A DNA stretch of 64,000 nt from Thozetella sp. PMI_491 (lineage: Eukaryota > Ascomycota > Sordariomycetes > Chaetosphaeriales > Chaetosphaeriaceae), in the NCBI GenBank assembly GCA_021432635.1, contig MU270046.1:533913-597912 (forward strand), read 5' to 3'. Position 1 is the first letter of the stretch. Every line of letters starts with the position of its first letter. Positions 10,989-49,800 of this stretch are shown here, piece by piece. Made by a program: the position numbers and the translations under genes. The notes beneath the pieces were generated by a model. It had not been told where the DNA came from. It was given only the letters and a program-made list of their open reading frames with translations, and searched no databases.

Positions 10989-13900
10989 ATGGCTTCAGAA
11001 GGAACGGATGCTTCGGACGAGTCAAACTCCGTAGTCGACCTCGCTAAGAGCATCTCGGCACTTTTCGAGAAGCTCGGGCCATGGAAAGCAACCATGCCCG
11101 ACGAGCTGAGGGCAGAACTAGAGAAGGTTGAGTTAGAGGCAGGACGCCATGTCGACAACAATTTCAACGAATGCATTGAGGAGTTAGTAGCTCCCCTCGG
11201 GGCCCCAATCCGCCGCAGAAGTCCGGCGGCAACAAGCATTGTACTCACCTGTTGCATCTAGCATTCCCCAGTGGACTTGTGAAGTTGAAATCCACACCAT
11301 GGACGATTGGAAGAGGGGCATTCGAGGTCCCAGAGAAGACGAGCCTACGCCGGTGATACAGGCCTATTATCAGAAATTAAATTTGACAAGGTCCGACAGA
11401 CGGGTTTCTCAAGATGCATTAAACCACGTCGGGGACCAAAAAAACCTGCAGAGAATCCAAATCAACTCGGACATTCTACATACGGAGCTTGAAAACCTCA
11501 CGTCTACTTCCACTGTCTTTCCGATCATGTAAGCTACGACCTCCCTCGCCCTCGCCCTTGCGTCTAGTTTTCTAGGGCTAACAGAAGTCCTTTTTGGTAC
11601 TTAGAATTACTTCACCTTACAAAGTATGTTCACTGCTGGGCGAATTGGCACGCTGCGGAAAAAGCCATAGAGGCCTCGCGATTATTAACAAGAGCTTGCA
11701 CTAGATTTTGTTGGAGTTTCTCCCGCGGTTTGAGAGCAGGCTCGCGGAGCTACGACTTGAGTCTGAAAGAACCTCTCTGGCGTCTGGCGAAGCGACGCCG
11801 CGATCTACTGAGCCCACAGCAGCCACTGACGGCGAGATTCCCCCAACGCAAGAGCAAATCACCACGCCTACGAAAGTCAACCCCCCACAGCTTGAAGACC
11901 TTGTTTCTATGGAGCCAAGTCCAGAGCCCTCCTTAGAAGCTGACGAAACTGATTCAATTCCACGGTCGGCTACCCCGAACCTACTGGAAAGAATAGCCCA
12001 CTTGCAATGCCTCGTCAACTTCATACACGATAACCTCAAAGGGCTCATCGAGATGAGAGCTCAGATAACGAATGGTACGCTCAAAAGCATTGCCTTCGAC
12101 GATCTATGGCATCTGTTTCGGCCAGGAGATCTCGTGGTAACCAGCGAGCATGGGCGAGAACGACTTAACAGGGTGTTTTTTGTTACCGGCGGTCTCATTC
12201 AAAGAAAAAGAAAACGAATGAATGATGAGAGAAGACCGCAGTATCACGGCCTAGGCACGTGGACTTCATTTCGCATCTACACGTATCAAATGGAGTTTGA
12301 CGGTAACGAGGTAGGCATGACGGTCGATATAATTGGGATTGAGCACTACCTGGGGAAGAAGCCAATCTTCGATCTCAAAGTATATCCAGTACAGCTTCAT
12401 GCGAAAGAGGACAATATCGTTCAGCGCATGGAGGATCGTGGGCGGCGATTCATGGCTTCCATGGGTCATCAATATTACGAGGGCTTAACGTTGCCACATC
12501 TCAACCTAGATATCGACGACGACAGGAAGGAAAAGTACATCAAGCTCTTCGAGCGGCGCGAAGATCTCGCCAGCGAAGTTTTTGTCGACTTCGAGGCCTA
12601 CTACCAAGTCTTCCACCCATTCAAGCCAGGTTTTACATCACTACCGGCGGTTCCTCAGGACCCCTTCGAGGGACTTGAAGAAACCAGTACTCCGAACGAG
12701 GTCCTCCGGCACTCGGGACAAGAGGTTGATCTGAAGATAGCTGAAGATTACATGGCGCAAAACCGGGACTTGTTGCGATCCTACTACCCTGGTCAATCAG
12801 AGGCAAATTCTGAACACTATCGGCTCCTGAGCCATGGAGTGCCTGGATATTCGTTTCGACACCGGAAGTGGTGTAAGTATTCTTGCCCCGCCCGCAGGCT
12901 CGCGGTTTCTGATGGTGGTAGACCTGCTTGATGTCGATAACCTCCGACCCATTGACCACAACAGCCACCCTGGATTTGAATACCTGGTGATCCCCCAGGA
13001 ATACAAGGACTTGCTACTCGCTCTTGTTGACAATCACACCTCCGGGATTCAGAGGCGCCGGGAGAAGGTAAACAGCCAAGCGAGAGCGCTGGACAATGGA
13101 AAAGTCGACATTGTGCCGGGCAAAGGCCAGGGTCTCATTGTGCTCCTGCACGGGCCACCAGGGTCTGGAAAGACAAGCACCGCCGAGACCATAGCAGCGT
13201 ACACACGCCGCCCATTGTACTCGATTACCTGCGGCGATATCGGACTAGACCCCGAGAGCGTCGAGACGCAGCTCAGAGCGCATACCAGGAGGGCAGACAA
13301 ATGGGGCTGCGTGCTGCTTCTGGATGAAGCAGACGTATTCCTCGTCTCCCGTACGCACAGAGAGCTGAAACGGAATGCGTTGGTATCTGGTCAGTCTAGA
13401 TTTCTCCAGTTTCTTCTTGATGCAAACTATTTACCGACTTGCAACAGTGTTTCTCAGGCAGCTGGAGTACTATTCTGGCATCCTTTTCCTGACAACGAAC
13501 CGCCCCGGCACTCTCGACGAGGCCTTCAAATCTCGTATCCATGTGTCACTGCGGTACCCAGGAATGGATCTCGAATCGACCAAGCTATTATGGAACAACA
13601 TGATGAAGTTGCTGACCGCTGACAATGCATTTGCGGATGTCAAAGTGGAATTCGACAGGGCGAGGCTCATAGCGTTTGCCGAGAAGCACTATAAGCGATG
13701 CCAGCAAGAAGGAAGGGCCTGGAACGGTCGGCAAATTCGCAACGCCTTCCAGACCGCCCTCGCCCTCGCCCATGCAGAGCGGGTGGCTAAGATTCGCGAT
13801 GATGGCGACACGCTAGGGGAAACTGCCGCCAGCAGCAAGAAGAAGCCAGCGACGGTGAGGCTGGCTGCGAAGCACTTCCGCACCATTGCCAAGACCACGG

Positions 13901-19401: not shown

Positions 19402-21096
19402 ATGTCGCCATCAACAATGGGGGCATATGAGTACCATCCGCTTGAATCCCGCCGGCATATCCGCATTCTCCATTTGCTTCCGGGTAGCGTCGAAGATCCG
19501 ATAAGATGCAACCTCATACATCGTAGCCTGGATGATACGACCCAACCACCATTTGAGACACTCTCGTACACTTGGGGCGTCGATAATGTTGACATAACAA
19601 TCTTTGTCGACGGTGCGGACTTCCAGGTTAGAGATAACCTATTCGCGGCCCTCCAAAAGTTCCGGAACCCAAGTGTTCCTCGCCTACTCTGGGCCGACGC
19701 GATATGCATCAACCAGCAAGACATCGACGAGCGGAGCCAGCAAGTTGCCATTATGAGAGACATATACGCACAGGCTAGTGTAACGAAGGTATGGCTCGGT
19801 AAGAGTCAACCGGAGGACTACGACGCCGTCAGAGTGATACAGGCTCTGGTGGATGTCGAGGATGACAAGGAGCTCAACGATGATGAAAAGTCATCCAAGG
19901 TCGCCCAGATACTTTCCAACGAAGATGCTGCTGCCCTATGGAAGTTTCTGAGTCACCCGTGGTTCCGGCGCGTGTGGGTTCTCCAGGAAGTCGCCGTCGC
20001 TAAGGAGGCCACAATGCATTGCGGCGACATCAACTTCGACTGGCGTGCGATTTCCACACTGAACGAGTGTCTTTGGCATAGATGCCCCCTAGAGCAAAAG
20101 TTTTATTTCAACATTGCCAATAACCTCGATGCGTTTGTTTCTCTCCGCAGCGAGAGAGACAATCCATGGATGAGCCTTGATGCCTTGCTCGTCACGTACC
20201 CCGCGATCTTTGAGTCGAGCGAGCCGAGAGACAAGGTTTATGCTCTGTTTGGACTGCCGTTCCGGCGGGATAACCGAGAGCTTCCTGTAGTGGATTACCG
20301 CCTTCCAGTCAAAGACGTATACAAGCAGGCTACTCGGTTCTGCATCGGATCCGAGAACCCCTTTGGCATTTTGCAAACTGCTAAAGTACCCGGATCTTCG
20401 TGGATCTCAGACTTTTCCGCGGTGAACTTGGATTCTGGGGATTACGTCCCGATTTTCTCGGCCGGCGGGTCGAGTATGCTCCCAATCCGCTTTGGAGGCG
20501 AAAGTGAGGATATTCTCATCTTGAAAGGCCATATCATTGATACCATTGAGTCGGAATTTCAGTGGGAAGGGAAAACATACGAAGATGTGTTCTCCAATAT
20601 CAGCCCCGACTCGGAGGACCTGGACAAGTTTTACGCCTGGGCTCAGGAATATGTCTCGGAGCCTAGGAGGGAAACGCTAGAGGAACGCCTGTGGAGCTTC
20701 CTTATTTCTGACCTTTTAAGGATCGATGGCACGCCCACCAGGGCGAAAAAGGGCTTTGGGAACTACTATCTGGACCCCCGGGCAACAAGGGCACCTACAG
20801 AAGAAGACGAGCCCGCTTTGAAGCAAATGCAGAAGCGTTACCTCGAGCGTCTGCGTGCCGCTTATGAGGAGGGACGAATTGCTGTGACTTCGAGAGGATA
20901 TGTCCTGTGGATGCCAGATGACTCCAGAATTGGTGACCCTGTGTGCATTTTTGCTGGCTACGGCAGTCCTCATGTCCTCAGAGGACAGCCAGGTGGCTCT
21001 TACGAGTTGCTTGGTCCCACATATATTCACGGTATAATGGATGGCGAGTCCCTCGCAACAGAAAGCCACGAATGGGTAGATATACATATTAAGTAG
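19402..21096 (+). CDS. Heterokaryon incompatibility (HET) domain protein
   Basis: This intronless gene encodes 564 residues. The HET domain occupies about residues 50-200, with its typical blocks FETLSYTWG, RLLWADAICINQQDIDER and QQVAIMRDIYAQASVTKVWLG. The second half (DPREKVYALFGL-like EPRDKVYALFGLPFRRD, VDYRLPVKDVYKQATRF) is the usual C-terminal extension of this family, ending with SRGYVLWMPDDSRIGDPVCIFAGYGSPHVLR. HET proteins trigger cell death when genetically different hyphae fuse; most paralogues in a genome are of unknown specificity. No WD40 or ankyrin tail is present, so it is the compact 'HET only' form. A four-TM protein is encoded on the other strand immediately downstream. Confidence 0.93.
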   Translation: MSPSTMGAYEYHPLESRRHIRILHLLPGSVEDPIRCNLIHRSLDDTTQPPFETLSYTWGVDNVDITIFVDGADFQVRDNLFAALQKFRNPSVPRLLWADAICINQQDIDERSQQVAIMRDIYAQASVTKVWLGKSQPEDYDAVRVIQALVDVEDDKELNDDEKSSKVAQILSNEDAAALWKFLSHPWFRRVWVLQEVAVAKEATMHCGDINFDWRAISTLNECLWHRCPLEQKFYFNIANNLDAFVSLRSERDNPWMSLDALLVTYPAIFESSEPRDKVYALFGLPFRRDNRELPVVDYRLPVKDVYKQATRFCIGSENPFGILQTAKVPGSSWISDFSAVNLDSGDYVPIFSAGGSSMLPIRFGGESEDILILKGHIIDTIESEFQWEGKTYEDVFSNISPDSEDLDKFYAWAQEYVSEPRRETLEERLWSFLISDLLRIDGTPTRAKKGFGNYYLDPRATRAPTEEDEPALKQMQKRYLERLRAAYEEGRIAVTSRGYVLWMPDDSRIGDPVCIFAGYGSPHVLRGQPGGSYELLGPTYIHGIMDGESLATESHEWVDIHIK

Positions 21097-40077: not shown

Positions 40078-41068
40078 ATGATGCAGCTTCTTTCGAGTCT
40101 ACCGTTCTGCATAGCGGCGCAGAATCTAACTGAGGAACAACAGTTCAACATTCGTCGGACCCTATCCGTTGGCTACGTTCGTGTATTCCAGCATATATCC
40201 CTTCAACCCTTCACTAACCGAGTACAACAGATCATCTTCCCTGGGTTCACAGCGCTCGATGTATTCGGGCCTCTGGAGATTTTTTACCAGGTATGCGCGT
40301 CCAAGTATCCAGCTGGCTACAGCCAAGAGTTTAATCAAAGCTGACGGGTTTCGGAAAGCTCTCCTTCAACTACAGCTTAACTCTTTCCACCATTTCGTAC
40401 CATAAGGGCCCAGTATCTTCCCACCCACCACCACACCGCATGGGAGATGCAGCTTCGACCGTAATGGAATTTGGATCTATGATTGGGACATCTGTGACTG
40501 CCACACATACCTTTGAGGATGCTCCCGCTCTTGATGTCATCATCGTTCCTGGCGGCCTGGGCGACTTCACGATCGAGCAGGGGAACGACACGAGAATGGA
40601 AGACTTCCTAGTCCGTCGTTTCGACGCAGCTGACTACATACTGAGCGTGTGCGTCGGATCGGCTACCCTGGCGCGTGCAGGACTTCTGGAGGGCCGCAGA
40701 GCAACGACCAACAAGGCCCTCTGGTCGTGGGCCGTTAGCCATGGAAAGAACGTCACCTGGGTGCCGTCGGCACGTTGGGTGCAAGACGGCAAGATATGGA
40801 CGAGCTCCGGCGTGGCCGCGGGCATCGATATGACCTATGCCTTTCTCAAGCACGCCTACGGAGCCGAGATTATCGACGGTGTGATGAACGGCATAGAGTA
40901 TGCGCCGCACGCGGATCCGAGCTGGGACCCATTCTCCGTTGTACACAACGTACGTCCCTTCTTCACTCGATCGGTCGCACAAGGAGCTAATATGACTCAC
41001 AGGTCCCTGGTGCCGACAAAAATCGACCTTTAACGGACTGCATCGCGCCTGCGGGGTATTCCGCATGA
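40078..41068 (+). CDS. Secreted DJ-1/PfpI family protein
   Basis: Four exons (ending 40176, then 40231-40290, 40359-40949, 41003-41068) give 271 residues from the ATG at 40078. That start gives a compact signal peptide (MMQLLSSLPFCIAAQ); an upstream in-frame ATG at 40030 lies almost on the TATA box. DJ-1/PfpI features are the first strand SVGYIIFPGFTALDVFGPLE (restored by removing a 54-nt in-frame intron, 40177-40230), ALDVIIVPGG, and the nucleophile-elbow cysteine in ILSVCVGSATLARAGLLEGR, followed by TTNKALW and SSGVAAGIDM. The ending VVHNVPGADKNRPLTDCIAP appears only after the last intron is removed. Members include isonitrile hydratases, glyoxalases and proteases; the substrate is unknown here. 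A secreted location is inferred. Confidence 0.85.
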
Positions 41069-42974: not shown

Positions 42975-43433
42975 TTATTTGATCGTCATGGCCACGTTGC
43001 TGCGGTGGTCAATGCCGAGATTGGTGTCGATGCATAGGTCTTCTTCCACGGCTTTGAGCATGGTGTCCACGAAGAGGTTGTCCTCGCCGCCGGTAGCCGG
43101 CGGTCTGGCCGTCGAGGGAGATGAAAATCGTGCTTCCGTTGGCTAGCGGCGGAAGGCTATAATGGGGCGCAGTCCCGAGACCACCCGACGCGATCTGCGA
43201 GGCACTACCGCCAGGGACGTGAAGGTAAAGATGACTCTGCATTTCCGAGTGTTGTCATAATTCTCGAGCAGGCGTACCATGAAATCTCGTGTCTTGGTGC
43301 CGACTACCACCGTGCTGTTGCCGCCGCTCTTGATGGTAGGTACCTTGCAAAGCCTGACGGCGCGGCTATGGAGACATAGCTCGCAGCAGCGGCAAGAAGA
43401 AAATGTTAGAAACCTTGTTTCATCTTTGGGCAC
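42975..43433 (-). pseudogene. Probable broken or spliced gene of unknown family
   Basis: The minus strand shows coding-like pieces: GGNSTVVVGTKTRDFM, then SHLYLHVPGGSASQIASGGL and LPPLANGSTIFISLDGQTAG, then GGEDNLFVDTMLKAVEEDLC ending NVAMTIK and a stop at 42975. The first two join neatly if a 41-nt stretch (GTACGC donor after DFM, TGCAG acceptor) is an intron. The second and third are displaced by one base with no splice site between them, indicating a frameshift or a sequence error. The family is unknown. It lies 200 bp beyond the 3' end of the protease-VWA gene on the same strand. Confidence 0.45.
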
Positions 43434-43635: not shown

Positions 43636-46600
43636 CTACACTGGGACACGAATAGACACTGGTGACCGGCCGGGCTGCGTCATCACGAGCCCCGGCGGCG
43701 CCGAAGAGTTCCAGCTGATAGGCACGCTGTAAAGTCCATTGTTATTGTCCACAACCGCTCCTGTAACCACTGCCGAGCCCACACCCTCCCAGGTGACGTC
43801 GGCACTTCGCCCAGGCCCTAGATAGTTGCCGTAGCGGTCCTTCGGCGTCACGACCGCCACCCCAATGCTCTGGCCTCCCGATCCCGATCCTCTATTCGCA
43901 AGTGTCACGTCGGTGAATGCGGCATCGATACCAATGCCGACGTGGACACTCCAGAGCACCTCCCGCGTGTAGACGCAGTCATCATCTCCTAGGCTCGACG
44001 CGACGGCGTGGAAGAAGAAATCGCCCTCTACAACGAGGGAATTGTTCAGCATCCGTCCGTAAACACCTGTTGGTTCCAGGTAACCGCCTGAGCCTTCGGC
44101 TCCATTATCAAGGGGGAAGGATTGCTCTAATAAACCCACAGCGATCCCAAGGTCCTTCAAGGTCTGCTGCGCTGCCGGGATGGTGTCTCCCGAAACATTC
44201 GTGTCGGGTGCGTGCAGACCCGTACTTGCCAAGATGGTCCCGACGCTGACATTAGGAGTTCCCATCGTCAGCTGAACGTTAGCCTCGTCGATCCAGGTGC
44301 CGTCGGCGAAGCCAAAGTAAACCAGTGGGTTGATCCGATCGCCGGTATAGTAGAAAGTCCTGTTGGTTTCGGGGTCGGGCGCGACTCGTAGTGTCGGGCC
44401 ACCGGTCGGAATCACATTGACGAAGTATGTCAGCGCAGGAGGAACGTCCCGCAAAACCAACCGCTTGAAAGCCCGGAGCAACGCCCTGAAGCGAGAAACT
44501 GGTGGCAAAGGAATTCTGTACACCGTATAGTTCCACCGCCCTTCCTGCTCGTCGTTGTAGGGCAGGGGTCCGCGCAAGAACGCCCACGCCCGTCCACCCT
44601 GTTCCTCCACGTTTGGCGACAACCCGCCGATTACGTGTCCCGACGGGGTTGTAACATTCACACGGAGGTCGCCACCGCGACTTATGTCGAGATCCCAGCC
44701 TACGGCCAAGGTCACTGCGTCCTCCTTGCACACGCGGAATTCCACCGGCTGCGCGAGAGGGGCGCCGGCAGGGAGGACCTGGTCGGGGTCCTGCAAGATT
44801 CCAGTCTCAAAGATGTTGCCGAATGCCAGAGAAAAGAATTTCATCAGCGCAACGCCCGTCTCTGCTGCGCTGTACAGTCCCCCATGACGTGTCGCGAGCT
44901 GGCTCAGCTTAACGCCGTCGAGGTTGGTCGCCGCGCCAAAACCAACGGCGTGCACAGCTATGTTGTTGTCCGACAGTCCCTGCTCGGCGTCGCTGATGAG
45001 TGGGAACGTGTTTTCCATCCCGTCAGTCATGAGAAGGATGGCTCGCGGGTTAACCGATCCCCCGGTTGCGAATTGCCCAATAGCCTTCTCGAGGCCATCC
45101 CCAATGCTGGTCGAACCGCTCGGTTTGAGCCCTCCAACGATTCCCGAGGAGTACGGAGCCGTCCCAATCAGCTTCGCTTTGTTCGTATCCGTAGCATCTG
45201 CCAGAGCAAAGTCCACTGGTGAGCTCGCGAATGTGTTAAATGACACAAAGCCTATCTTGTTCCCACCGGCACCCGCGCGGACCAGCTGCACGAAGAGAGA
45301 CACGGCATCTCGCGCCACCTCGATCTTGCTGCGCCCAGTAGCGTCCATCTCGATCATGCTACCTGATCGGTCGAACACTACCATGACGTCTCGCGACACT
45401 GGCTGTGGTGGCTGCGGTGTCATGTCTTTGATAATCGTCGCCGCCGGATAGTAGTTGAGGTAATAGCTGCCGCCGTAACAAGGAGCGCCGTTCGACAGCA
45501 CGCCCAGCAGCCGCCCGGCGGTGTCGAAAAGACCGGAGCCGGAGCTGCCGCCCGATACATGCACGTCGCGTGTGACCGAGATTCTTGCATCTGTAGAAGA
45601 AACGACATGTGCGAAGCCATATTCGTCCGGAATGGACAGCTTCATGACAGCTCCGTTGGGGTGGTGAAGGCCAAAAACTTGCTCGCCATTGCCGCCCGTG
45701 GTAGCGTCCCCGACCGGCAGGTCTGATCGAAGTTGGATAGGTGGTATACCGGGAGGAGAGGTTTCGAGGCGCAGGATAGCCCAGTCGTAGGGGTAATTGA
45801 CACCATCTGTCACGTACTTGATGGATACAGCTTCCTTGACCTTGAAGAACTTTGGAGCGTACGTCGATGGGCGGTTAAAGTTGCAGTCGGTTTCGTAACC
45901 AAAGATAACGGAGCTGCCTATAGCTTCCTGGTCGCTCAAGCAGTGCCCTGCTAATATCACGAGGTCTGTATCGATGAGCGTCACCGAGCACGTGCTGATT
46001 ATCTTTGTGTTGTAGAACGGGTTGGTCGGATCCTGATACTGCGAAGGAATTTCGTTCTCTGGGACAATTATCATGCCCACGCTACGCGAGACGCGCGCTC
46101 TCACGCCGTTCGGGTCCTTGACGCAGGCCGCATTGGTCCAGTTGGCTGGTGGTGTACAGAACCATGTTGGATCGAAGATTGGATCAACGTATGGAGTCGT
46201 CACGAGAAACGGATCACAGTTAGACATGCTACTAGGGTATTGACTGCCATTGTGTGGTTCTCCAACTCCTAGATTGTCGATCAAAGCACCACCGGTCGTA
46301 GCACCGTTCGTAGTGTATGTGACCGCCACGCTCTTGCCAGGCAAGGCCCTGAAGTTGATCGGGCGAGTCCACAGGGGAAATGTGTCAGCTGAGGTAAAAA
46401 CGTCGATGTCCCCATTTCCTAGGTCGATGGAGATGGTATTCTCACCCGGGAGGGTAGCGGCGCTGAAATGCAGCAGCAAAAACGTGGCACTGCTTGAGAA
46501 GGCTGACGCCGGGATCTGAACTGTCCATACGTTGGCTGGATTAGGAGCCACGCCTGTGTCAGGCCCTACGGCATAGCTAGTAGCTTGCCAGATTCCAACG

Positions 46601-46752
46601 ACATGACTCGGGGTCCGGGTCGTGTTCACAGTCTCACATGCCGGCTGAGCAAAGTTGAGCTGATCCACTCCAGAGGGTATATAGCCCTGGCTAAATGAAG
46701 TAGCCACGACAGAAGCCACGTGACTATGACAGATGAGAGCTTTCAGATTCAT
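43636..46752 (-). CDS. Large secreted protein: trypsin-like protease fused to a VWA domain
   Basis: This intronless gene encodes 1038 residues. The ATG at 46752 is preferred over the open frame to 46932 because a hydrophobic leader (MNLKALICHSHVASVVATSF) starts there and a TATA box lies 85-92 bp upstream. Order of parts: a beta-rich region with GALIDNLGVGEP, like secreted jelly-roll domains; then a chymotrypsin-fold protease with His in LAGHCL (about residue 270), Asp in YPYDWAILRL (about 322) and Ser in SGGSSGSGLFD (about 402); a Pro-rich linker; then a VWA domain with a full metal-ion site, MVVFDRSGSM, STSIGDGL and LLMTDGMEN (about 460-600). The rest is beta-rich, ending in Ig-like repeats. 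All catalytic and metal-binding residues look intact. Protease-VWA fusions are more usual in bacteria. A role in processing or binding extracellular proteins is inferred. Confidence 0.85.
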   Translation of the reverse strand: MNLKALICHSHVASVVATSFSQGYIPSGVDQLNFAQPACETVNTTRTPSHVVGIWQATSYAVGPDTGVAPNPANVWTVQIPASAFSSSATFLLLHFSAATLPGENTISIDLGNGDIDVFTSADTFPLWTRPINFRALPGKSVAVTYTTNGATTGGALIDNLGVGEPHNGSQYPSSMSNCDPFLVTTPYVDPIFDPTWFCTPPANWTNAACVKDPNGVRARVSRSVGMIIVPENEIPSQYQDPTNPFYNTKIISTCSVTLIDTDLVILAGHCLSDQEAIGSSVIFGYETDCNFNRPSTYAPKFFKVKEAVSIKYVTDGVNYPYDWAILRLETSPPGIPPIQLRSDLPVGDATTGGNGEQVFGLHHPNGAVMKLSIPDEYGFAHVVSSTDARISVTRDVHVSGGSSGSGLFDTAGRLLGVLSNGAPCYGGSYYLNYYPAATIIKDMTPQPPQPVSRDVMVVFDRSGSMIEMDATGRSKIEVARDAVSLFVQLVRAGAGGNKIGFVSFNTFASSPVDFALADATDTNKAKLIGTAPYSSGIVGGLKPSGSTSIGDGLEKAIGQFATGGSVNPRAILLMTDGMENTFPLISDAEQGLSDNNIAVHAVGFGAATNLDGVKLSQLATRHGGLYSAAETGVALMKFFSLAFGNIFETGILQDPDQVLPAGAPLAQPVEFRVCKEDAVTLAVGWDLDISRGGDLRVNVTTPSGHVIGGLSPNVEEQGGRAWAFLRGPLPYNDEQEGRWNYTVYRIPLPPVSRFRALLRAFKRLVLRDVPPALTYFVNVIPTGGPTLRVAPDPETNRTFYYTGDRINPLVYFGFADGTWIDEANVQLTMGTPNVSVGTILASTGLHAPDTNVSGDTIPAAQQTLKDLGIAVGLLEQSFPLDNGAEGSGGYLEPTGVYGRMLNNSLVVEGDFFFHAVASSLGDDDCVYTREVLWSVHVGIGIDAAFTDVTLANRGSGSGGQSIGVAVVTPKDRYGNYLGPGRSADVTWEGVGSAVVTGAVVDNNNGLYSVPISWNSSAPPGLVMTQPGRSPVSIRVPV

Positions 46753-46836
46753 TTCTAGTTTATGGGTTTTCACCGGGAAGTGGGAAACAAGGATGTGGAA
46801 AATGCATGGATAGTCAATGTCTGGTAGAAGAGGTCC

Positions 46837-46844
46837 TATATATA
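46837..46844 (-). promoter_or_regulatory. TATA box of protease-VWA gene
   Basis: TATATATA 85-92 bp upstream of the ATG at 46752. It lies inside the open frame that extends to 46932, so the longer start is unlikely. Confidence 0.5.
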
Positions 46845-49800
46845 AGTACCTGTTAACCCGGAGGATTCTACCACCGTCCATTATGAAGCATGATAACACC
46901 ATGACAAGACTAGCCCAGTCATAAGAACACATGGACTCTTAAGACAACTCATATTCGCGGGCCGATTTACTGCTCGGTATTTGGCTATTGGCTATTGAAA
47001 CTCATCGGCTGAGACGCCACATCTCCGAGGCCCAGCCGCAGAAGGACGCACGGCCACCCCCGAAAATATGCAGCTTTCATCTCCTTGGGCTACGCGCAAT
47101 AGTTGAGCCCCTGTACCACAATACGCAAGGTAGCATGAATAGGTAGTTTGGGCTTTCAGAGCGAGGGATGCCAAGCACCGGCCAGTGTGCCTGATCCTCT
47201 TCGGGAATATGAGTTTCTCGGCTCCAGAAGCGGCTGCCGAGTGTGGGTTTACATCCAGCCTTCCGGCGTGGCCCGTTTGAGTCTCGCATCTTATCAATGG
47301 TCCGAAGTCGCACGATCTGTATTCTGATGTGCATATACGAGACGAGGTTGGCTCATGATATCGAAACTGGCGGGTCACTTGGCAAGCACGTTCACAGTTT
47401 ACTCGGCCTTTCCAAAATGGTAGACTTGCCTCAGGTGCCGTAGCAGCAGCTCGATACACACGTTTTGCGCTCGCCTCATACCTAGGTAGCTACTAGCGTT
47501 AAAGGCATGTTTTATAGGGGTGTGTAAACCTGCCTTTCGGCGTCGCCCTACCTTGGACCTAAATTCTTCGTGACGGTAACCATTAAATGTGCACTGGACT
47601 TTTCGGATCCACTTTTCCCTCGTCCATTCTTACTATCGGTGCAATCTTGGCTACAAACCACCGAGTGATGAGATAGCCCATTCTTTTTTGATAGTTATTT
47701 GGTCCGAATCTAGACTCCCGTCTCACGAGGAACATCTGACGAAATGGTGCTGCACCTAACTAGTCGAAACAACATCGGGATTATCTTGGCTGACCAAGAT
47801 CTAGGCCTTGATGTGGGGCCGGAGCATAAGCGAGGGAGGCACTAGTATTTGGGCAGCGCTAACATCTTGTCTAGGCAGATGCCGATTAGGTGCCTGAAGT
47901 GGTGCATCCTGACAAGTAATTGTTCGTTCTCGGCAACAAAGCCTTCAGAAACCCTCAGAATGGATATAGACGTCTTTCTCGCTAAGGCTTAGGCAGTACT
48001 AAGTCAAGGTATTCTGGAACGCGGCAGTATACCTAGCTAGCCTATGCAGACGTGCTCTTAGGAAACAGGAAAGACTAGGAGCTCTATTGCGTAATGGAGC
48101 TAAGCAGAAGAATACACGATATTTTGAGGCAGCAGTTGATATAAGTTGATGCCCTTCTATGATAAATTTTGAATTTGTGGTCTCACCGATAAACACAATG
48201 ATGAGAGGTTTGCATATTGGGATCTATGAGAGGTTCCTTCTCCCGGGTCGTATGATAAGGACCTATTACCTGTTTTTATCTCTAGCTGTCTTGGCCGGTT
48301 CGCCTTAGTAAGGAAAATCTTGAGTCATTTCCTCTCCGATTTACACCGAGCCAAGACCATAACCCATTTACCAAGCTTCCCGTCCATCTCAACACCTCTA
48401 TTTATATAGCCTGGACACTTTACGATACGAACCAACACCAACAGTCACCAAATTTAAGATTGACATGAAGGCCGTTCATAATAGATATGGGTTTCCAGGG
48501 ACAGGTTTCTGTAGCAATATACTAGTGATCATCGTCCAGAAAAACATAGCCCAAGAGCGAGTGCAGAGGGTTTTACGAAGAGCGCCTCTATTCTAACATG
48601 CTTCTACGGCCTTCCAACAGAAATATTACGTGATACATCGGAAATATATACCGGAATGGCCGGAGGTTAGCGGGGCGGTGGAAGAAAGGTGCCGGAAGTT
48701 CTGCAAAACGTACGACGGCATTGGCATAAGCGCAGATATCGTATTGAAGGTGCAGAATTCGTAAATAGAGTTCAATGAATCCAGCCCCCTCCATGGGTAT
48801 GATTGGTAGCGCATGTCAAAGAACCCTGAATAGAAGTGCTTTAGCTGTCCACATTTGTTCTAAGCCCGAAAATGCAATGCATACCGCTTCCACTAATGAT
48901 GCACAGAGCATATACGTACCTTAGTTGGGCGATGAAAGGCGGCCGCCTGTGACGAAGGAATGGATGCCTTGCCCCACCTTCCTCCGTGCTCATTTACGGA
49001 TCGAATTTACTTTACCTATTCGGATCACCACCCTGCTTCCTCGAAAGACCAAGGCTCTCATATCTATCATAGGATACACTTGGGAAGTAGGTTCCCGTGA
49101 TATGCCTGACGAGAAGGAAACGTATGATTTAGATCTGGACAACTACATGTCTCAAAGCTCAGCCGACTAATAGCAGCTGACCTCTCCAGTTGCAACCCAT
49201 ATTTAGGAGGGTGAGGCAACCGCCCCACCGAACTTGGCTGTGCCTCTTAATTGCTATCCCCTTCTGGTAATGCTGTGACACCTACAAAGAGACAAGGTCC
49301 AGATTGCCCTCTAGGTAGGTCCCTAGGTAGGGCTGAGAATCCTGTGGGGGCGAATGGTCACCTACCCACTACTAAGACAAAGAGGACCCCTTCCCCGTCG
49401 CTAGCGGCGTTGGAATTAGTCAACAGCGTTAGGGACTTTTAGAGGCTCCATGTCACCCCGAATCTGCCAATCAGACCAATCATGCTTCTAGTCCTCGGTT
49501 GGGTGGGAAGGAGGTTCGACAACCGGGCGAGTACTGCATACAACCGTCCCATCGGCCATGCAAGTCATAGCAACTTGGGAACTAAGCATGGTAGGTGGTC
49601 ACCCATTTATTTAGCAAGTGCCACGAAGCAGCTTTAAGGGTTACTCACCATATCGAGGAAGTGCCGCAGCTGGTTGCGGTAGTAACTAATGCTGCTTACC
49701 TGGCTATACATAATTCACTAACGACGCCTATTGCCCCGCATTTAGCCATACGACGTCGATAGGCGAGGAAGGTAGGCAGCCAGCACCCCCAGCTAGGCAT

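Follow-up and report, generated by a model that had tools for sequence, protein, structure and literature searches.

Which protein does a fungus make when it joins a trypsin-like protease to a von Willebrand factor A (VWA) domain, and from where did it obtain such a gene? The question is raised by a 64,000-nucleotide stretch of the Thozetella sp. PMI_491 genome (contig MU270046.1, positions 533,913 to 597,912; the window below), in which one trypsin-VWA gene encodes both domains. On balance, we favour the view that its product is a single-chain serine endopeptidase, probably secreted, belonging to a mainly bacterial, uncharacterised trypsin-VWA family, and that an ascomycete ancestor acquired the gene from bacteria. 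The sequences establish four points: the catalytic triad is complete, so is the metal-ion-dependent adhesion site (MIDAS), bacteria share the full-length architecture, and the fungal members form a single group in the tree. Trypsin-VWA proteins are already present in databases under the names of their domains, and the family is uncharacterised; its fungal branch shows a large multi-domain protease of bacterial type that survives intact in ascomycetes of patchy distribution and seems to have been adapted for secretion.

Gene and domain architecture

The trypsin-VWA gene is a single open frame of 1038 amino acids on the minus strand (46752..43636, single exon, stop codon at 43636-43638). It lies within a longer open reading frame (ORF; 46932..43636, 1098 amino acids) of which the ATG at 46752 is codon 61, and this ATG is the likelier start because, in the alignment, the Podospora didyma homologue (P0011) has its first residue at precisely this point. 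No intron is needed in the gene, as no stop interrupts the frame and relatives can be aligned with it as far as its end. When the 72.3 Mb genome (157 contigs) was searched in all six frames, the sole match was the window gene itself, on a contig of 721,236 bases. A 933-amino-acid piece of RPB2 from this genome has 84-86% identity to RPB2 of Podospora, Sordaria and allied genera (85-86% for Podospora appendiculata, Thermothielavioides terrestris and Sordaria brevicollis), which points to a sordariomycete as the most likely host.

A preliminary description, made from the letters of the window alone, had proposed an intronless frame with a His-Asp-Ser protease triad and a VWA domain with an intact metal site, and both proposals hold. 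The triad is found in the motifs AGHC (His270, 45943..45945), YDWAIL (Asp323, 45784..45786) and GSSGSG (Ser404, 45541..45543, in GGSSGSG and preceded by Ser), all within a trypsin-like (S1 type) protease domain at residues 218-445 (45418..46101) that is supported by Pfam (PF13365/PF00089), PDB sequence matches and Foldseek. The VWA domain follows at residues 452-655 (44788..45399), and its motifs DRSGSM, TSIGDG and TDGMEN supply a complete MIDAS: the DxSxS residues D461, S463 and S465 (45358..45372), Thr548 (45109..45111) and Asp577 (45022..45024). Domain searches support both assignments, as the Pfam matches to VWA (E 8.4e-11) and Trypsin_2 (E 2.6e-9) exceed their curated cut-offs and are hence not due to chance. 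Numbered along the 1098-residue form, the protease occupies residues 313-498 and the VWA domain residues 515-684.

The AlphaFold2 model of the protein is confident (pLDDT 89.3, pTM 0.86), and the further beta-rich domains that had been anticipated are borne out by it, with residues 656-1038 modelled confidently and mainly as strands. They comprise a domain straight after the VWA domain in the model (residues 656-785, 44398..44787), which has a weak, sub-threshold likeness to the P-domain of proprotein convertases (E 0.25), and C-terminal beta domains (residues 786-1038, 43639..44397) that, from model and alignment, lack a Cys-rich tail resembling epidermal growth factor (EGF). A PDB sequence search with the C-terminal region returned chance-level matches alone (best E 0.057). 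At the other end, a leader-like N-terminus (residues 1-20, 46693..46752), recognised from hydropathy and from alignment with the N-termini of homologues, precedes a beta-sandwich domain (residues 50-165, 46258..46605) of which the preliminary description made no mention. This domain may be CUB-like, judging from a fold comparison, and a PDB sequence search with the region found no match. Its model gave no Foldseek match at E ≤0.001; binary-toxin binding components head the rows above that threshold, with carbohydrate-binding modules and CUB proteins lower, and we do not read these rows as kinship.

For the protease domain, PDB sequence searches matched lysyl and glutamyl endopeptidases, and Foldseek matched elastase and a Fusarium trypsin. 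Both endopeptidases, the lysyl enzyme being also known as Achromobacter protease I, are bacterial S1 proteases and the nearest solved sequences; one of these structures, 9omd, has the segments HHPxGxxKxxS and GGSxGSG in common with the window protease. The matches (E 2e-6 to 2e-3) are confined to the protease region, and the likeness does not fix specificity, be it for lysine as in lysyl endopeptidase or otherwise.

A mainly bacterial protein family

A search of 5.8 billion proteins at E ≤0.001 yielded 716 matches, of which the best 120 were aligned; these are the sequences nearest to the query rather than a random sample. The order of protease before VWA had been regarded as unusual for a fungus, but it turns out to be the established domain order of a family that is mainly non-fungal, with 104 of the best 120 matches lying outside the fungal group (44-49% identity over 90-95% of the length). 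Organism names accompany 13 of the 120 rows. Four are ascomycetes (Geoglossum umbratile, Trichoglossum hirsutum, Podospora didyma and Fusarium nematophilum); the nine named rows among the 104 are all bacterial and none is fungal (Thermoleophilaceae, Thermoleophilia, Anaerolineales, Deltaproteobacteria, Alphaproteobacteria, Paraburkholderia, [Empedobacter] haloabium, Nitrosomonas nitrosa and "Bacillus cereus", a label to be treated with caution). Three further loci, two in Janthinobacterium and one in a Kangiella metagenome-assembled genome, came from scanning bacterial and archaeal genomes. The gene is rare per genome: at E ≤1e-60 it occurs in 2 of 195 genomes of the family that includes one carrier (G001), and in its phylum G001 itself is the only carrier among 398 genomes.

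Members are plentiful in databases, and their enzyme and metal site are intact throughout the best 120 matches: H270, D323 and S404 of the triad, the five MIDAS residues and Cys 255, 271, 425, 675 and 926 are each invariant in 120 of 120 aligned relatives. Bacterial members such as those of [Empedobacter] haloabium (P0100), Paraburkholderia sp. BR10937 (P0112) and Janthinobacterium sp. CG3 (P0123) share the domains and their order with the window protein over about 930 residues, and agree with it at every catalytic and MIDAS position. They differ at the termini. The 104 rows outside the fungal group have no leader visible by hydropathy, whereas the window protein opens with a leader-like stretch and stops once its final beta domain is complete. 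The C-terminus of these 104 rows is a hydrophobic helix in 34 and an unnamed domain, here called DDCC after its motif, in 62 (57 by script and 5 by eye); another small domain is present in 7 (6 by script, 1 by eye), and one row is cut. This third C-terminal type, with the pattern GKV..I.YD.FGDFEGF.L.TE...F..REH..E.LV..AW, is seen in P0024, P0039, P0048, P0050, P0069, P0072 and P0116, where it stands in place of the DDCC domain or the hydrophobic helix. The Kangiella member (L003:5822-8698) is leaderless with a C-terminal hydrophobic helix and would be tail-anchored judging by its sequence, although the family keeps the Cys pair that forms the Cys42-Cys58 disulfide in chymotrypsin; all leaderless members have a pair of this type and may, by some route, reach an oxidising place.

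Among mobile elements, 23 records of a plasmid collection match P0100, all at <35% identity over ≤27% of the query, a likeness at the level of domains, and a phage collection gave no match. Six loci on viral contigs align at 26-28% over part of the query and were rejected as members of the trypsin-VWA family.

The fungal branch and the origin of the gene

In a tree built from 1026 columns (unrooted, short search, without bootstrap), 16 fungal-like rows form one side of a branch with a support of 100 in the Shimodaira-Hasegawa-like approximate likelihood ratio test (SH-aLRT). The smallest set holding the window protein and all named fungi has 14 rows (SH-aLRT 100), with P0010 and P0120 joining next. 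The four named fungal homologues fall in this group at 46-52% identity over 95-100% of the query, and all four bear a Cys-rich EGF-like tail that the window protein lacks. One of them, the Trichoglossum gene model P0009, has a shortened and changed segment ahead of SGSG and is listed without a Pfam match to trypsin.

In appearance the fungal proteins are a bacterial core with additions at both ends. A start at M/V-S-H without a leader is found in 98 of the 104 non-fungal rows; ten of the 16 fungal-type rows extend before this point, five begin inside the core and P0010 begins close to it. The EGF-like tail is present in 11 of the 16, and three of the four tail-bearing proteins scanned gave weak, below-cut-off matches to EGF_3. 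Secretion in the fungus is likely, by way of the leader-like stretch ahead of the bacterial start and, in most relatives, the tail.

We consider it likely, from the sequence comparisons, that an ascomycete ancestor took the gene from bacteria long ago. A bacterial transfer had already been suggested as possible for the gene, with which its size and lack of introns would fit. The transfer is indeed probable, but the missing introns are weak evidence for it: in four members of the same group (P0002, P0003, P0005 and P0007) the ORFs do not start until about residues 79-109 of the window protein, a late start that points to an intron further upstream, although contig ends or ORF calling could do likewise. 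The direction from bacteria to fungi rests on the spread of the named bacterial rows over several phyla and the three C-terminal types among the 104 rows, on the presence of only four named fungi among the best 120 matches, and on the appearance of additions on a bacterial core. What weighs against this reading is that the tree is unrooted and has no outgroup, so that an origin of the family in fungi with later passage to bacteria has to be considered. A single branch separates the fungal-type rows from the others, as such an origin would allow, and one study (PMC3650047) argues for a eukaryote-to-bacteria transfer in the CLCA family. We nevertheless regard a fungal origin as improbable, given that named bacterial members occur in classes of Pseudomonadota, in Thermoleophilia and in Anaerolineales with at least three C-terminal types, against four named fungi, and that leader and tail look as if they had been added to a core starting where the bacterial proteins do. 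Bacterial contamination of the assembly would account for the nearest named non-fungal relatives being bacterial, but it has next to no chance of being right: the contig that carries the gene is 721 kb long and has a HET-domain ORF to one side of it and an ankyrin-repeat ORF to the other, its product is closer to fungal than to bacterial homologues, and its GC content at third codon positions (0.64) lies inside the range of eight other window ORFs (0.48-0.80).

Comparison with known systems

The preliminary description also drew parallels with complement C2/factor B and with CLCA proteins, and these extend to the parts of the protein and not to its family: the domain order differs from that of C2/factor B, and no CLCA metalloprotease domain was found. 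Complement C2 and factor B combine an S1 protease and a MIDAS-bearing VWA domain in one secreted chain, with the VWA domain before the protease and with complement control protein (CCP) modules. The protease and the MIDAS VWA domain are common to them and the window protein, whereas the VWA-first order is theirs only; no CCP/Sushi domain was found in the window protein with Pfam at E up to 1. CLCA proteins have a protease, then a VWA domain, then beta domains, and their protease is a zinc metalloprotease (PF08434), to which the window protein had no Pfam match at E up to 1. The CLCA1 VWA domain (6pyo) is among the sequence matches of the window protein. The CLCA_N family was found in none of 369 bacterial genomes, nor in any of 14 control genomes, and this search hence gave no CLCA profile for comparison with the domains after the VWA domain.

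A literature search of titles and abstract openings, covering few subscription journals, found no study of a trypsin-VWA fusion. A 2017 survey of fungal serine proteases reports six groups besides S1 subfamilies A, B, C and E, and neither VWA nor von Willebrand occurs as a term in the main text (PMC5567314).

Activation and proposed function

In zymogens of the chymotrypsin type, Asp194, immediately before the catalytic Ser, pairs with the new N-terminus. At the equivalent position the 120 aligned relatives have Ser (116), Thr (3) or a gap (1), and Asp in none; membership of the chymotrypsin-type S1A zymogens was rejected for want of this feature, and zymogen activation of that type is unlikely because Ser or Thr precedes the catalytic Ser. 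A joint with the pattern (R/K)-S-V-G-M lies before the protease and could be a processing site. Its basic residue, at position 223, is present in 107 of 120 rows (15 of the 16 fungal-type rows and 92 of the 104 others) and Ser224 follows in 116 of 120; the exceptions at position 223 include Pro in 11 rows and Ala in one.

The architecture suggests the following mode of action. Through a divalent metal, the VWA domain would grip a macromolecular ligand by one of its acidic groups; further ligand contacts may come from the CUB-like domain and the beta domains at the C-terminus, and the protease would cut on or near the bound target, which could be a cell surface, the matrix or the proteins of a competitor. 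The protease is probably competent once folded; as the zymogen-type Asp194 is absent, it would be controlled by targeting and not by release of a propeptide. An adhesin-protease activated or targeted by ligand binding, as the preliminary description put forward, may likewise be envisaged.

Two other readings bear on this proposal. The protease could be gated by its ligand, being switched on by binding at the MIDAS or CUB-like domain or by cleavage at the (R/K)-S-V-G-M joint, in the manner of a convertase or zymogen. Gating by VWA domains is known in other systems, a beta domain lies ahead of the protease, and the basic residue and Ser224 of the joint are widely kept, but the chymotrypsinogen switch is missing from all 119 rows that have a residue before the catalytic Ser, and Pro or Ala replaces the basic residue in 12 rows; we consider gating unlikely. 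Alternatively, the Thozetella gene may be a decaying copy, without the tail and an effective leader that it once had, whose product is neither secreted nor used in this species. A decaying or differently used copy is a live rival because the tail is absent (a search for a remnant in the window found nothing above noise among the matches listed), the leader is weak and the branch is long: none of the ten extended fungal-type rows has a less hydrophobic leader (best 11-residue mean 1.56, against 1.74-2.99 in the other nine), and the end branch is the longest of the fungal-type rows (0.54, followed by 0.51 and 0.50). Decay is, for all that, quite unlikely for a gene with 1038 open codons, an intact triad, MIDAS and set of family-invariant Cys residues and a confidently predicted fold, and four other fungal-type rows likewise have no tail. 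We continue to favour a secreted, targeted endopeptidase.

A partner gene in bacteria

In Janthinobacterium (L001, L002) and in a further genome, G183 (L008/L016), the trypsin-VWA gene follows a gene for a second VWA protein. This partner, a leaderless protein resembling integrin beta, is encoded just upstream of the trypsin-VWA gene at L001:6873-8588, L002:3907-5487 and L016:1501-3228. It ends in the same DDCC domain (GREP...MDDCCRL...ELLLG) as the trypsin-VWA protein, and the copy in partner P0122 is 55-57% identical to those in trypsin-VWA proteins. The gap between the genes is 61 bases in L001 and 11 in G183 (counted to the MSH start); in L002 the matches to both are incomplete. These bacteria are related, so the pairing amounts to little more than one lineage's worth. 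The source contigs of P0115 (trypsin-VWA) and P0330 (partner) both measure 1,070,327 bases, which hints at another pair. At the Kangiella locus, of the helix type, no partner match was found in its 14 kb.

The C-terminal domain of the partner is matched by 394 proteins that are about as long as the partner itself, and among the matches listed none of 108 long partners has a hydrophobic N-terminus. A search of the fungal genome with P0122 found no match, which shows little as the search had no positive control. No MoxR AAA+ gene, the neighbour of the vWA gene in MoxR-vWA (VMAP-type) conflict systems, was seen among eight scanned neighbouring ORFs (five in L001 and three in L003), a part of the neighbours only, and PADLOC assigned 0 families to five proteins. 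A more speculative scenario can be built on the pairing, and we put it forward only tentatively: a bacterial leaderless two-gene system, in which an integrin-beta-like VWA protein and a trypsin-VWA protein both carry DDCC domains, would have lent one half to fungi, which made of it a secreted CUB-like/trypsin/VWA/EGF-like recognition protease. Such a protein would be complement-like, having arisen independently of animals, with binding to a surface placing the protease on its target.

Neighbourhood of the gene

Ten longer ORFs of the window were scanned and six have a Pfam domain (DUF7025, HET, beta-lactamase, FMO-like, ankyrin repeats and aldehyde dehydrogenase). The HET-domain (heterokaryon incompatibility) ORF (19402-21096, plus strand, E 1.1e-31) and the DUF7025 ORF lie to one side of the trypsin-VWA gene, and a 1340-amino-acid ORF with ankyrin repeats (53984-58006, minus strand) lies to the other. 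The end of the DUF7025 ORF (11708-12931) is overlapped by an AAA ATPase ORF (12834-13622, plus strand), and a DJ-1/PfpI family ORF lies at 40335-41030 (plus strand, E 3.9e-15). Downstream of the trypsin-VWA gene, a short stretch of the minus strand at 42975-43400 looks by eye like a broken coding sequence, for example TMLKAVEEDLCIDTNLGIDHRSNVAMTIK followed by a stop.
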